Positions 3,339-35,153 of a stretch of DNA of 48,531 nt are shown one piece after another; the first letter of the stretch is position 1, and each line of letters begins with the position of its first letter. Source of the DNA: Robiginitomaculum sp. (GTDB taxonomy: Bacteria; Pseudomonadota; Alphaproteobacteria; Caulobacterales; Maricaulaceae). Location: the NCBI GenBank assembly GCA_027080345.1, contig JALWSB010000146.1:1-48531 (forward strand), given 5' to 3'. Under the pieces are notes generated by a model, which made no database searches, was not told the DNA's origin, and saw nothing but the letters and a program-made list of their open reading frames with translations. The translations under genes and the position numbers were made by a program.

Positions 3339-4106
3339 TTGCGTATTGTTGACAAGACATTTCATGCGGCGCGGCATTGGGGGCGCGCCGGGCTGGACGT
3401 GCTGATGCCGCCTTTATGCCCAGTCACCGGCACCCTTGTTGATGAGGCCGGCACCTTGTCGCCTTCCGCCTGGGCGGGCTTACGCTTTATTACGCCGCCC
3501 CGGTGCGCCGCTTGCGGTTTGCCGTTTGATTATGATGTTGGCGATAATGCCCTGTGCGCCGCATGCCTGGCAAAGCCGCCAAAGATCGGCACGACCCGCT
3601 CCGCTTTGGTTTATAATGATGTCAGCCGGGCGCTGATTTTGGCGCTTAAACATGGCGGTCGCACCGATGGCGTGAGCCGCATGGCCGGGTGGATGACTAT
3701 GGCCGGGCGGGATATTCTGGGCCCGCACAGCCTGATCTTGCCAGTGCCTTTACATTTTTTCAGGCGTATCAGGCGCCGCTTCAACCAATCGGCCCTTCTG
3801 GGCCGGGCCATTGCCCGCCAGACCGGCGCGCCATTTGCCCCGGCATTGCTGCGCCGCACCCGTGCCACCAGTTCGCAAGCCGGGCGCAATGCGCGGGCGC
3901 GCCAACATAATGTCGCCGGGGCCTTTACTATTAATCCGCGCCAAGCAGCCCGCATTAAAGGCGCACATATTGTTTTGATCGATGATGTACGCACCACCGG
4001 GGCGACGCTGCACGCGTGCGCCCGGCCACTTATCAAGGCCGGGGCGGCGCGCATTGATGCTTTGACACTGGCCCGCGTTGTCAAAACCGCAGATCAGACT
4101 ACATAG
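3339..4106 (+). CDS. comF: ComF family phosphoribosyltransferase-like protein
   Basis: ComF proteins combine an N-terminal zinc-finger-like region with a phosphoribosyltransferase fold and are linked to DNA uptake. Visible here are MPPLCPVTG, CAACG and CAAC (the first Cys pair is incomplete), then a PRPP-loop-like strand VLIDDVRTTGATL near the C-terminus and the segment RRFNQSALLGRAIA typical of the family. The start is uncertain: the frame is open from an ATG at 3228, but that would overlap the divergent methyltransferase-like gene. A TTG at 3339, GTG at 3399 or ATG at 3405 all fit the usual length of about 230-260 residues. grxC follows 19 bases downstream. Enzymatic activity has not been established for most of this family. 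Confidence 0.87.
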   Translation: MRIVDKTFHAARHWGRAGLDVLMPPLCPVTGTLVDEAGTLSPSAWAGLRFITPPRCAACGLPFDYDVGDNALCAACLAKPPKIGTTRSALVYNDVSRALILALKHGGRTDGVSRMAGWMTMAGRDILGPHSLILPVPLHFFRRIRRRFNQSALLGRAIARQTGAPFAPALLRRTRATSSQAGRNARARQHNVAGAFTINPRQAARIKGAHIVLIDDVRTTGATLHACARPLIKAGAARIDALTLARVVKTADQTT

Positions 4107-32221: not shown

Positions 32222-32425
32222 CTATTTTGCCGCCTTCATAGGGCAGGTTTTAATGCCCAGAATAGCGTAAGCCGGGCACCAGCCAATCAACCCGGTAACC
32301 AGCGGCACAATGCCGATCCAGCCCCACGGGTTTAACCATGATGGTCCAAAAAAAACACCAAGCAGCAAAGCAGCACCAATAATAATTCTCAAAATGCGGT
32401 CCAAACCGCCTTCATTCATTTTCAT
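32222..32425 (-). CDS. DUF2892/YgaP-like inner-membrane protein
   Basis: A 67-residue membrane protein like the transmembrane part of YgaP. After MKMNEGGLDRILRIIIG come two hydrophobic helices (RIIIGAALLLGVFFG, then IGIVPLVTGLIGWCPAYAILGI), ending in the family motif GWCPAYxxLGIxTC with Cys at both ends. Family members often sit beside rhodanese or persulfide genes. GGAGG precedes the ATG at 32425 with ideal spacing; the frame remains open upstream without such a site. Its promoter region contains a palindrome like a Crp/Fnr operator, and a Crp/Fnr gene lies 96 bases upstream on the same strand, suggesting local control. Confidence 0.85.
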   Translation of the reverse strand: MKMNEGGLDRILRIIIGAALLLGVFFGPSWLNPWGWIGIVPLVTGLIGWCPAYAILGIKTCPMKAAK

Positions 32426-32481
32426 AAGGGCCTCCATTGCTATTAGATTAGCCCTATCTTGCATACGGCATGGCAAAAGCA

Positions 32482-32498
32482 ATGTGACAAAATCACAT
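32482..32498. promoter_or_regulatory. Crp/Fnr-like operator upstream of the DUF2892 gene
   Basis: ATGTGA-CAAAA-TCACAT is a perfect 6+6 palindrome with a 5-base centre, similar to the Crp consensus TGTGA-N6-TCACA but one base shorter. It is 57 bases upstream of the DUF2892 start. A TATCTT/AAGATA box at 32455-32460 would place the operator about 41 bases ahead of the transcription start, the position used by Crp/Fnr activators. Confidence 0.55.
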
Positions 32499-32521
32499 AG
32501 TCAAAACATTATTTGGAAAAA

Positions 32522-33163
32522 TCAGTCGGCAGACCCGGCGATATGCGTCAGGCGGGTTTTATCCAAAAGTCTTACCGTGCCGCGCGACAGGGCGACAATA
32601 TCGGCCTTTTGCCATAAATTCAGCTGGCGGTTGACCGCCTCGCGGGCCGCGCCAAGCGCCGCGGCCAGATGGTCCTGCGTGATGTTCACATCCGCGCCTG
32701 CGCCTGCTGCGCGTAATAAATACCGCGAAAGGCGCGCGTCAAGCGGCTCAAACGCCAAATCGGTCAACAACCCCATCACATCGACCAGACGCTGGCCGTA
32801 GGTTTGAAATACCCCGGCACGAAAATCGCGATCAGAGGCCAGCAAATCTTCAAAGGCGGCGCGTGGCAGCAACAGCGCCTTGGCCGGTTCTTCAACAACC
32901 GCTTCGGCCGGGTAAGGATCATCCGCCAAAAGGCAGGCCGTGGTGACAATGCAGCTTTCGCCCGGCCCGATATGATAAAGCACCAGTGTGCGGCCGTTTT
33001 CACTCGTTTGCTGAACCCGCACGCGGCCCGAAACCAGCCAGACAAAAGCCTTGCAGGCATCCCCATGGCGAAACAAAACCGCCCCTTTGGGCGCTTCGAC
33101 TGTTTGGCCGATGGCGGCCAGCCGCTCATGCATATCTTGTGGCAAAAGCGCCGGTTTATTCAT
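32522..33163 (-). CDS. Crp/Fnr family transcriptional regulator
   Basis: A 213-residue regulator with an N-terminal cyclic-nucleotide-binding beta barrel and a C-terminal HTH_Crp domain (NITQDHLAAALGAAREAVNRQLNLWQKADIVAL). The barrel contains FRHGDACKAFVWLVSGRVRVQQ and the segment GESCIVTTACLLADDPYPAEA, with Cys71 and Cys77 six apart and Cys37 nearby. It lacks the four-Cys Fnr cluster pattern and the Arg-Ser cAMP phosphate site, so it senses something else; the Cys pair hints at redox or sulfide. It overlaps the exported NTF2-like gene by eight bases, and the DUF2892 gene follows. A start 52 codons upstream is open but runs through that gene. Confidence 0.88.
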   Translation of the reverse strand: MNKPALLPQDMHERLAAIGQTVEAPKGAVLFRHGDACKAFVWLVSGRVRVQQTSENGRTLVLYHIGPGESCIVTTACLLADDPYPAEAVVEEPAKALLLPRAAFEDLLASDRDFRAGVFQTYGQRLVDVMGLLTDLAFEPLDARLSRYLLRAAGAGADVNITQDHLAAALGAAREAVNRQLNLWQKADIVALSRGTVRLLDKTRLTHIAGSAD

Positions 33164-33626
33164 GATTGGCCGCCGATGTATGATCACTGATAATGCGCCA
33201 GTCATCCCCGAACTTTTGAAATAAAAGGGTAAAAAGACCATGCGGATGATCGCCCGCCCGCGCCAGGGACCAATGCCCGAACACCTGAACGGCGGTCGGT
33301 GACAGGGTCCGCGTTTCAATATCGCTGAAACTCAATTGCCCCATTTTTGCGCAATCGGCATAGCGCGCCTTATAGCCTTGCAAGGTTTTTTCCCAGCCAT
33401 AAGTCACCTTATCACCCGAGGCAAAACGTAAATCCTTGCTATGCCAATAGCCCGCCATAAAGCCATCAATATCGCAAGAATTCCAGGCCGCAGTTTGCGC
33501 CGCCAGAACTTTGGCAGGTCCGGCCGCAGCGTTATTGGCGGGCCGCGTCTCGTTTGCACGCACAGGAAGCGCCCCCAAGGACAAAAGACCCGCAAAGAGC
33601 ATCCTTATTACACTTATTTTTTTCAT
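33156..33626 (-). CDS. Exported NTF2/SnoaL-like protein
   Basis: A 156-residue protein with a signal peptide (MKKISVIRMLFAGLLSLGALPVRA) and a single NTF2-like fold: KVLAAQTAAWNSCDIDGFMAGYW, then TYGWEKTLQGYKARYADC, LSFSDIETRTLSPTAVQVFGHW, and the final strands LFTLLFQKFGDDWRIISDHTSA. This resembles the YybH/DUF4440 group, whose members bind small ligands or act as unknown enzymes. Its stop overlaps the Crp/Fnr gene, so the two are co-transcribed. No catalytic residues can be assigned; a His near the C-terminus (DHTS) is family-typical. Confidence 0.8.
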   Translation of the reverse strand: MKKISVIRMLFAGLLSLGALPVRANETRPANNAAAGPAKVLAAQTAAWNSCDIDGFMAGYWHSKDLRFASGDKVTYGWEKTLQGYKARYADCAKMGQLSFSDIETRTLSPTAVQVFGHWSLARAGDHPHGLFTLLFQKFGDDWRIISDHTSAANHE

Positions 33627-33669: not shown

Positions 33670-33870
33670 TTAAGCGTCTTCCGCATCCTCAAATATAGCT
33701 TCTATGGGCTGTTCAAAAAGCCGGGCGATCCGAAACGCCAAAGGCAAAGACGGATCGTACTTTCCCGTTTCAATGGCATTGACCGATTGGCGTGATACAT
33801 CGAGATGTTCCGCCAATACCGCCTGGCTCCATTTGCGCTCGGCGCGCAAGACCCGCAACCGGTTTTTCAT
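33670..33870 (-). CDS. Small XRE-family (Cro/CI-type) regulator
   Basis: A 66-residue protein that is almost entirely a helix-turn-helix: LRVLRAERKWSQAVLAEHLDVSRQSVNAIETGKYDPSLPLAFRIARLFEQPIEAIF, with recognition helix VSRQSVNAIE. This compact type is usually encoded beside a small membrane protein and controls the pair. The start overlaps the stop of the upstream membrane-protein gene by four bases, so both come from one mRNA. A 17-base palindrome over the promoter of that mRNA is the obvious candidate operator. The regulator lacks any ligand or oligomerisation domain beyond the HTH. Confidence 0.9.
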   Translation of the reverse strand: MKNRLRVLRAERKWSQAVLAEHLDVSRQSVNAIETGKYDPSLPLAFRIARLFEQPIEAIFEDAEDA

Positions 33871-34478
33871 TTATACCCCCTGCGCACAAAGGGCTGGACC
33901 ATGCCAAACAGGCCAAAAAATACTGGCACCAGAATATAAAGGGGAAAGTCCGGGGCTTGCGCGAAATTTTCCAAAAAACCCCAAATGGCCGCAAAAAATA
34001 AAGTCAGCCCGGTGCTGAGCAGCAGGCTCCTTGTTATAATCATGCGCTCGAACTCATCAATATCCGGGTCGGCGATAAAGCGCCCCATTGCCCAGATTAT
34101 CCAGCCAATGGGCAAGGCCGTCAGAACCGCCAAAATAGACTTGACCTGGGTGGATAAATCAAACCGGTTGAGCGCGGCAACAGACACCATCAAGACTAAA
34201 ATGTAGAAAAACAATCCCATACCCAAACGCACCATATACCGCCGGACCGGTGCGCGCCGCCGCGCCGACAGTTTTGTGACGGGATTGTTTTTAGTGTAAT
34301 TAATCGCCAGCGGGAAAATACCCAAAACAGGTAAAGTCGGCACGATATAAGCCACCAAAGACAGACCAAAGGGCAAATCGGCCCGGGCAATCATTTTTGA
34401 TGCCAGCCATTCAAGGAGCAAAAAAGCAAAAACAAGACCGGCTATCCGGGTAAAATATAGAGATTTCGCGCTCATCAC
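33867..34478 (-). CDS. Multispan membrane protein paired with an XRE regulator
   Basis: A 203-residue inner-membrane protein with about six hydrophobic helices: near 10-28, 38-58, 84-106, 115-133, 150-168 and 176-195. Between helices 2 and 3 is a basic loop (KLSARRRAPVRRYMVRLG), so that loop is probably cytoplasmic; an acidic segment (DPDIDEFERMIITRS) lies between helices 4 and 5. No catalytic motif was recognised. The gene is first in a two-gene operon with the XRE regulator and is controlled by a recognisable promoter overlapped by a palindrome. AGGTGG precedes the ATG. Similar pairs are widespread; the function is unknown. Confidence 0.85.
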   Translation of the reverse strand: MMSAKSLYFTRIAGLVFAFLLLEWLASKMIARADLPFGLSLVAYIVPTLPVLGIFPLAINYTKNNPVTKLSARRRAPVRRYMVRLGMGLFFYILVLMVSVAALNRFDLSTQVKSILAVLTALPIGWIIWAMGRFIADPDIDEFERMIITRSLLLSTGLTLFFAAIWGFLENFAQAPDFPLYILVPVFFGLFGMVQPFVRRGYK

Positions 34479-34488
34479 ACCACCTATA

Positions 34489-34533
34489 AAAGTAAACTTT
34501 ACTTTACATATCGATCAGGCACATCATTGTCAA
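34489..34533 (-). promoter_or_regulatory. Promoter with overlapping palindromic operator
   Basis: On the minus strand TTGACA (34533-34528), 17 bases, then TATGTA (34510-34505) forms a good sigma-70-type promoter, predicting a start near 34498. AAAGTAAA-C-TTTACTTT (34489-34505), a perfect 8+8 palindrome, covers that start and touches the -10 box. A protein bound there would block transcription, which fits autorepression by the XRE protein. The ATG is 11 bases downstream. Confidence 0.75.
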
Positions 34534-34625
34534 ATACGTCTCCTTCATGAGGAATGCCCTTGCCGCCCTGTAAAGCGTGTGTCAAATGCGATAAACCAGC
34601 AATTACTCATGCAGGGCGGGAATTG

Positions 34626-35153
34626 ATGATGAAATTTTCTTTATATGCCGGACTTGGTCTTTTGCTTGTCCTTGGTGGGTGCAATGAACAACAGGTGGCG
34701 GCACCTGCTGCGCCCGTCGTCGCCCCGGCGCCCAATGGCATTACTTTCCCGCACGGGTATAAAAACTGGGATCTGATCGCCGTCAGCCACCGTACGGATA
34801 ACAACTCTTTGCGCGCCATATTGGGGAATGATGTGGCCGTTAAGGCGGCGCGCGCAGGCCAGACCAATCCCTGGCCCGATGGCAGCATGCTGGCCAAACT
34901 GGTCTGGAAAGATACTGTACACGAAGACGACTGGCCCGATGCCACCGTGCCGGGCGCATTCGTTCATGCCGAATTTATGCTCAAAGATGCAGGCAAATAT
35001 AAAGCCACCGGCGGGTGGGGATTTGCCCGCTGGCTGGGCAATCAGCAAAAGCCTTATGGTGAAGATGAAAACTTTGTCGAAGAATGCTTTGCCTGCCACA
35101 CACCAATGAAGCATAATGACTATGTGTTTACTCACCCGGTGAAACTGCGTTAA
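34626..35153 (+). CDS. Cytochrome P460 family lipoprotein
   Basis: A 175-residue exported protein with a lipobox (LVLGGC, Cys19) and a C-terminal c-type heme site Cys154-Phe-Ala-Cys157-His158. The region from FPHGYKNWDLIAVSHRTDNNSLRAILGND through GSMLAKLVWKD and FMLKDAGKYKATGGWGFARW follows the P460 domain. Characterised P460s oxidise hydroxylamine or detoxify NO; many homologues in non-nitrifiers are untested. There is no partner cytochrome gene next to it. The chosen start is the first of two consecutive ATGs before KFSLYAGLG; the frame is open 24 codons upstream. It is divergent from the XRE/membrane-protein operon, and a terminator follows. Confidence 0.87.
   Translation: MMKFSLYAGLGLLLVLGGCNEQQVAAPAAPVVAPAPNGITFPHGYKNWDLIAVSHRTDNNSLRAILGNDVAVKAARAGQTNPWPDGSMLAKLVWKDTVHEDDWPDATVPGAFVHAEFMLKDAGKYKATGGWGFARWLGNQQKPYGEDENFVEECFACHTPMKHNDYVFTHPVKLR

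Follow-up and report, generated by a model that had tools for sequence, protein, structure and literature searches.

Layout of the locus

The window, by which we mean the whole stretch of 48,531 nucleotides of Robiginitomaculum sp. that was analysed, carries on its minus strand a two-gene operon that encodes a membrane protein and a small HTH protein of the XRE/CylR2 type, the stop of the first gene and the start of the second overlapping by 4 bases (Table 1). The sequence TTGACA-N17-TATGTA that the first-pass annotation placed upstream of this operon was recovered exactly, with a spacer of 17 nt on the minus strand. It was absent from the output of a simple promoter scan of the window, because that scan demands a T at the last -10 position, where TATGTA has an A. 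The divergent neighbour of the pair is a cytochrome P460 gene, and the other neighbours identified by Pfam encode a DUF4440 protein, a CRP-type regulator and a YgaP-like protein; the gene of the CRP-type regulator, followed by that of the YgaP-like membrane protein, lies downstream of the DUF4440 gene (32222-33169).

Table 1. Genes and promoter elements of the membrane protein/XRE locus (positions in the window)
Feature	Position	Strand	Remarks
Six-helix membrane protein gene	33867..34475	minus	202 aa from ATG 34475; alternative GTG 34478 gives 203 aa
XRE/CylR2-type HTH gene	33670..33870	minus	66 aa; putative recognition helix 27-34, residue 29 = Ser
-35 box TTGACA	34528..34533	minus	doubles as what remains of operator site 1, its right half
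-10 box TATGTA	34505..34510	minus	identical in 9/9 aligned same-genus promoters, window counted in
Operator site 2, conserved, GTAAAGTAAAGTTTAC	34492..34507	minus	1 mismatch to GTMARG-N4-CYTKAC
Place of operator site 1	34529..34544	minus	window keeps the right half TTGAC only; 5 mismatches, counted by eye
Perfect palindrome of the first-pass annotation	34489..34505	.	overlaps site 2; unconserved in the genus
Likely ribosome-binding site AGGTGG for the ATG start	34480..34485	minus	predicted from sequence
Cytochrome P460 gene, divergent neighbour	34623-35153		Pfam E 1.1e-39

Conservation of the pair

A match to the membrane protein was found in 60 of 99 related genomes, and in all of the 30 best-scoring loci (L002-L031, window included) an XRE homologue lies directly downstream of the membrane-protein gene. 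Two of these loci of the same genus, L004 and L006 (G017:C3 and G005:C41), have two tandem membrane-protein genes of the same family before the XRE gene. The XRE protein led to a wider set of 80 named loci, the best 80 of at least 575 candidates and including many MAGs, which by title belong to Alpha- and Gammaproteobacteria, Acidobacteria, genera of the Balneolota and Ktedonobacterales. By a simple hydropathy rule, applied without chance control, a membrane ORF adjoins the XRE gene in 75 of these 80 loci. Among these same best 80 of at least 575 it lies just upstream in 54, 39 of which have the same four-base overlap, just downstream in 21 of the other 26, and on neither side in 5. Two more XRE genes in the genome of the window itself (L033 on C127 and L034 on C145) have as neighbours small ORFs that resemble membrane proteins and carry acidic D-E motifs.

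The palindrome and the conserved operator

In the first-pass annotation a perfect 8+8 palindrome, AAAGTAAA-C-TTTACTTT, was proposed as the operator of the pair. The palindrome is exact in the sequence, and some 25 centres around the promoter would be expected to yield 0.0004 such palindromes, a figure that is based on base composition and is uncorrected for a palindrome picked by eye. A palindrome as such is not rare, since the 48.5-kb window contains two perfect 8+8 palindromes with a 1-base centre. For this particular sequence, with up to 3 mismatches allowed, the expectation per window is 0.12. The search of the genome for further sites that had been proposed found the palindrome single at up to 2 mismatches in its own 2.24-Mb genome (81.7% complete). 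In the nine other loci of the same genus, however, its best match has 4-6 mismatches, and position 13, where the palindrome requires a T, is a G in all eight same-genus promoters that align. As a conserved operator unit the palindrome was therefore rejected, also because the conserved half-sites are spaced 6+4+6 and not 8+1+8.

What is conserved is a dyad in nearly the same place. We found TATGTAAAG-N5-TTGAC at this position in seven of the nine other same-genus loci, and a second site over the -35 box in six of the nine. The conserved dyad, GTAAAG-N4-xTTKAC, has its centre 2.5 bp upstream of that of the palindrome and covers three of the six -10 bases. In a promoter alignment of the window and eight same-genus loci (L011, where a search found no such site, is not among them), all nine rows have TATGTA followed by AAG (AAA in L010), and five bases beyond it stands TTGAC (ATGAC in L010), with TTTAC in the window alone. 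A second dyad, GTCAAY-N4-CTTGAC, starts exactly 37 bp upstream of site 2 in L003, L004, L007, L008 and L009, and in the form GTAAAT-N4-CTTGAC 36 bp upstream in L010, which makes the -35 box its right half; it is absent from L005 and L006. In the window half of site 1 has been lost, with TTGAC left, and site 2 has one mismatch. The dyad also occurs in farther relatives, for instance as GTAAGG-N4-CCTTAC in L015 and as GTCAAG-N4-CTTGAC in L049.

That the palindrome itself is the operator, recognised in this species only, is thus an improbable reading: it is perfect, single in its own genome as far as assembled, and sits over the promoter, and a second overlapping register in the window, GTAAAGTTTACTTTTA (2 mismatches), could let binding spread over the stretch, but the XRE proteins of the nine same-genus loci without it are 76-87% identical to that of the window, and the half-sites that are conserved have another spacing. 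The first-pass annotation had named the lack of a promoter palindrome in homologous operons as the finding that would speak against autorepression; this particular palindrome is indeed absent from them, yet an operator occupies the same place. The search of relatives for the pair together with a matching palindrome returned the pair (30/30 of the best-scoring loci) and, in the nine other same-genus loci, not the palindrome.

In general form the operator reads GTMARG-N4-CYTKAC, and it is present, usually twice, in loci named to Proteobacteria, Acidobacteriota, Balneolota and Ktedonobacterales. Two dyads separated by 20-60 bp were found in 86 of 110 loci against 0 of 550 shuffles; members of the same genus or order among these loci share descent and are not independent samples, and one locus is double-counted (L044, which is the same place as L004 and identical to it). 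The two-site array is missing in the other 24 of the 110, and a usable dyad in 15, Caulobacter vibrioides (L105) included. With up to one mismatch and within 900 bp upstream of the XRE start, the pattern was found in 11/15, 14/15 and 55/80 loci; as controls, about 1% of the shuffled regions had it, and 0/15, 1/14 and 1/80 downstream stretches. These counts refer to a widening, made after all loci had been inspected, of two narrower patterns fixed on L002-L016, which by themselves match 13/15 (L017-L031) and 34/80 (L037-L116) at up to one mismatch. A cleaner test is given by the loci collected after the pattern was fixed, of which 18 of 22 match, against 5 of 440 shuffles. In the literature searched, as far as its text was available, no description was found of this operator or of the rule for residue 29 and base 5 given below.

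A scan that made no use of proteins, for the composite promoter CTTGACA-N16-20-ATGTMARG-N5-YTKAC, gave matches in 5 of 385 genomes of the class and none in the reversed control; the promoter of the window does not match this pattern. The seven matches represent six places, five of which have an XRE homologue in the same 3-kb stretch. At the sixth place (L130/L131, G236:C25, about 3384-3435), two perfect operators 36 bp apart precede small membrane proteins, one with a D-E motif; the match to the membrane protein is weak (E 1.6e-5), there is no XRE homologue in the 3-kb stretch, and regulation from elsewhere in that genome is possible. In several loci of Caulobacter type (L039, L046, L051, L061 and L085) about 930-1140 bp separate the XRE gene from the two-site array upstream of it, which suggests three-gene operons with a second membrane protein.

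Within the genome of the window, GTMARG-N5-YTKAC occurs at 8 places, without excess over the reversed control, and at none in the stretches of L033 and L034. One perfect operator dyad, GTAAAGATTGCTTGAC (L117:1501-1516, G000:C33:26250), lies about 110 bases before an ORF whose translation looks like that of an alpha/beta hydrolase, and is possibly a second target of the XRE protein.

The association with the divergent cytochrome P460 gene raises the question whether the XRE protein mainly controls another gene, as CylR2 does the cytolysin operon. A divergent P460 gene adjoins the pair in four of the eight same-genus contigs examined, namely that of the window, L158, L162 and L163, and CylR2, according to the available text of PMC3709268, binds the promoter of a divergent operon. 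The operator, however, is present in all eight contigs, also in L157, L159, L160 and L161, in whose examined stretches P460 was not found, and the scan of the own genome, without excess over its control, likewise speaks against a main target elsewhere. We consider this reading quite unlikely.

The position of the operator bears on the sign of the regulation as well. The -10 box matches the consensus in part only, so that help from an activator is conceivable, but both sites overlap the boxes of RNA polymerase themselves, which is the usual position for a repressor. Activation of its own promoter by the XRE protein is therefore very unlikely, and we infer repression instead.

The XRE protein and the covariation of residue 29 with the operator

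By sequence and fold comparison the XRE protein is a single-domain HTH protein of about 66 aa with the CylR2 fold. Residue 29 lies within helix 27-34 of the structure model, which by its position is the predicted recognition helix.

Residue 29 tracks base 5 of the half-site GTMAxG, alanine going with G or T and serine or threonine with A. A usable half-site was available for 95 of the 110 loci. In these, base 5 was G 105, T 39, A 10 and C 3 times with Ala29 (42 loci), A 45, T 10 and G 2 times with Ser29 (25 loci; A 43, T 10 and G 2 in 24 loci after removal of the duplicate L044, which is among the 95), and A 68, T 3, G 2 and C 1 times with Thr29 (28 loci). Among 60 columns, residue 29 has the highest mutual information with base 5 (0.51 of 0.99 bits), followed by 0.27 for the next column; the maximum in 200 shuffles was 0.10. 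Ten loci are exceptions. The half-sites in these counts had to end in G, a filter that drops arms like GTCAAC coinciding with the -35 TTGAC and that favours the rule; loci without a real operator, moreover, add chance arms. Without the filter the counts are G 118, T 44, A 31 and C 9 for alanine, A 80, T 12, G 3 and C 1 for serine, and A 84, T 5, G 5 and C 2 for threonine, so that the rule is weaker for alanine, yet holds.

The later loci, from 15 of 150 genomes of the phylum and numbering 22 after exclusion of two repeats and one unparsed locus, gave G 10, T 6, A 1 and C 1 for alanine and A 26 and T 1 for serine and threonine together. The two repeats, L146 and L137 (of L029 and L028), are outside these 22 but serve as the Ala copies of G060 and G064 in the comparison within genomes; the unparsed L142, also outside the counts, shows Thr29 with GTAAAG. 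Paralogues of both kinds with readable half-sites were present in five genomes (G060, G064, G110, G340 and G420), in each of which the Ala copy and at least one Ser/Thr copy obey the rule. The Ala copy of G110 goes mostly with T, and the same genome has an additional Thr29 paralogue with GTGATG, contrary to the rule; in G242 the operator was readable for the Ala copy only. A tree requires four or more changes of residue 29, but only a single independent pair lies on strongly supported branches, which left the tree-controlled comparison underpowered, so that the covariation may reflect ancestry. With this reservation, the sequence of the operator and the putative recognition helix of the XRE protein appear to covary.

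Since the pair is conserved, most homologues examined have promoter dyads and the operator covaries with the recognition helix, the XRE protein very likely binds its own promoter. The proposal of an autorepressor with an operator at its own promoter thus stands as to its kind, on these same three grounds, and falls as to its register, the palindrome having 4-6 mismatches in the relatives. The operator found for the protein is an inverted repeat, to which it would bind as a dimer; CylR2, SinR and ImmR form equivalent dimers, as stated in the accessible part of PMC8960796.

The membrane protein

The first-pass annotation described a six-helix membrane protein without recognised function, and this description is confirmed: six helices are predicted (mean pLDDT of the structure model 83), and no Pfam model above cut-off and no NCBIfam model recognises the protein. 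Nor did Pfam give a model above cut-off for ten other partners, for which the best matches below it were DUF5360 and DUF3483 (E about 0.003), and a fold search of the PDB with the model returned nothing below E 0.66. An alignment of the diverse membrane proteins had no conserved stretch that could be used to search the named genomes.

An Asp-Glu pair makes up the sole invariant columns among 24 aligned relatives, and the dipeptide recurs in 52 of 54 upstream partners, many without obvious kinship (shuffled mean 8.4, largest 16). The four predicted cytosolic stretches contain 1, 5, 2 and 3 lysines and arginines and the outside stretches 1, 2 and 0; as the basic residues are mostly in cytosolic stretches, D140-E141 is predicted to lie in the cytosol, in the loop before helix 5 and at the start of that helix.

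Relation to known systems

The closest solved structure to the XRE protein is DR_2454 of Deinococcus radiodurans (PDB 9k3w; E 9.5e-23 by sequence, 69% identity over 61 aligned columns, TM 0.90 by fold), for which the literature search returned no paper under the entry code and we saw neither a function nor an operator. The best described relative is CylR2 of Enterococcus faecalis (PDB 1utx), a 66-aa HTH protein with the same fold (E 8.6e-13 by sequence, TM 0.87), which is likewise paired with a small membrane protein, CylR1. According to the available text of PMC3709268, CylR2 binds a promoter, induction requires CylR1, a suspected membrane protein, the system was suggested to work without phosphorelay, and the route of the signal from CylR1 to CylR2 was not understood. 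There are also differences: CylR1 has three predicted helices and the membrane protein of the window six, and CylR2 regulates, in response to a peptide, a divergent toxin operon, whereas the conserved sites of the window pair are on its own promoter. Beside the window pair the divergent gene is that for cytochrome P460 and not a toxin or lantibiotic operon, so that the pair is not a full CylR1/CylR2 member if that class is defined by a divergent toxin operon. A further CylR1/R2-like pair, Bib1R1/Bib1R2 of Bacillus thuringiensis, resembles that of the window but sits in a lantibiotic cluster, as far as described in PMC11343131, whereas the window pair has the neighbours named above.

The conserved gene neighbourhoods of Xre repressors listed by Makarova et al. 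2009 (PMC2701414) include three further pairs with a membrane protein, the PA2784-like, PA4076-like and YoaS-like ones, and it is through this membrane-protein/Xre arrangement that they resemble the window pair. In the part of that study available they were set aside because no type II system with a membrane component was detected, which weighs against a toxin-antitoxin module with the membrane protein as toxin and the XRE protein as antitoxin and autorepressor. A small coupled pair with likely autoregulation and a scattered distribution (60/99 relatives) would agree with such a module. On the other hand, the gene order varies among the loci, L130 has such a membrane protein and two operators without an XRE homologue in its 3-kb stretch, and the partner beside the XRE gene is a predicted membrane protein without Pfam or NCBIfam match above cut-off and not a soluble toxin of a known family. 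A toxin-antitoxin module is therefore unlikely.

Proposed mechanism

From its CylR-like layout and from the operator at the promoter of the pair itself, we read the pair as most probably a CylR1/CylR2-type module that represses its own expression and takes its input from the membrane, the membrane protein relieving repression; to this reading we assign a probability of roughly 0.7. Transcription of the operon would be blocked by a dimer of the 66-aa XRE protein bound to GTAAAGTAAAGTTTAC (34492-34507), a site that overlaps the -10 box; in relatives the copy at the -35 box would be bound as well. Ser29 of the putative recognition helix would go with the A that each half-site has as its fifth base. 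The membrane protein would be the input, and we infer that its Asp-Glu cytosolic loop contacts the XRE protein. On a membrane signal the loop may weaken the binding of the XRE protein to DNA or hold the protein off the DNA.

The window locus is an ordinary member of a broad kind. More tentatively, and with somewhat less than even confidence, these loci may form a widespread family for signalling from membrane to DNA without phosphorylation, in which varied sensors would all contact a well-conserved repressor of 62 residues through the same cytosolic Asp-Glu pair, residue 29 of the repressor would set one operator base, and several copies would function per cell without cross-talk. The cytolysin quorum-sensing system had, according to the available text of PMC11343131, previously been described for cytolysin only. 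The composite-promoter scan indicates that such switches can be found from promoter sequence alone. The points of specialist interest are the operator rule and the common Asp-Glu pair: together the operator, the rule connecting residue 29 to base 5 and the recurring Asp-Glu pair make the question of how CylR1 signals to CylR2 testable by point mutants.
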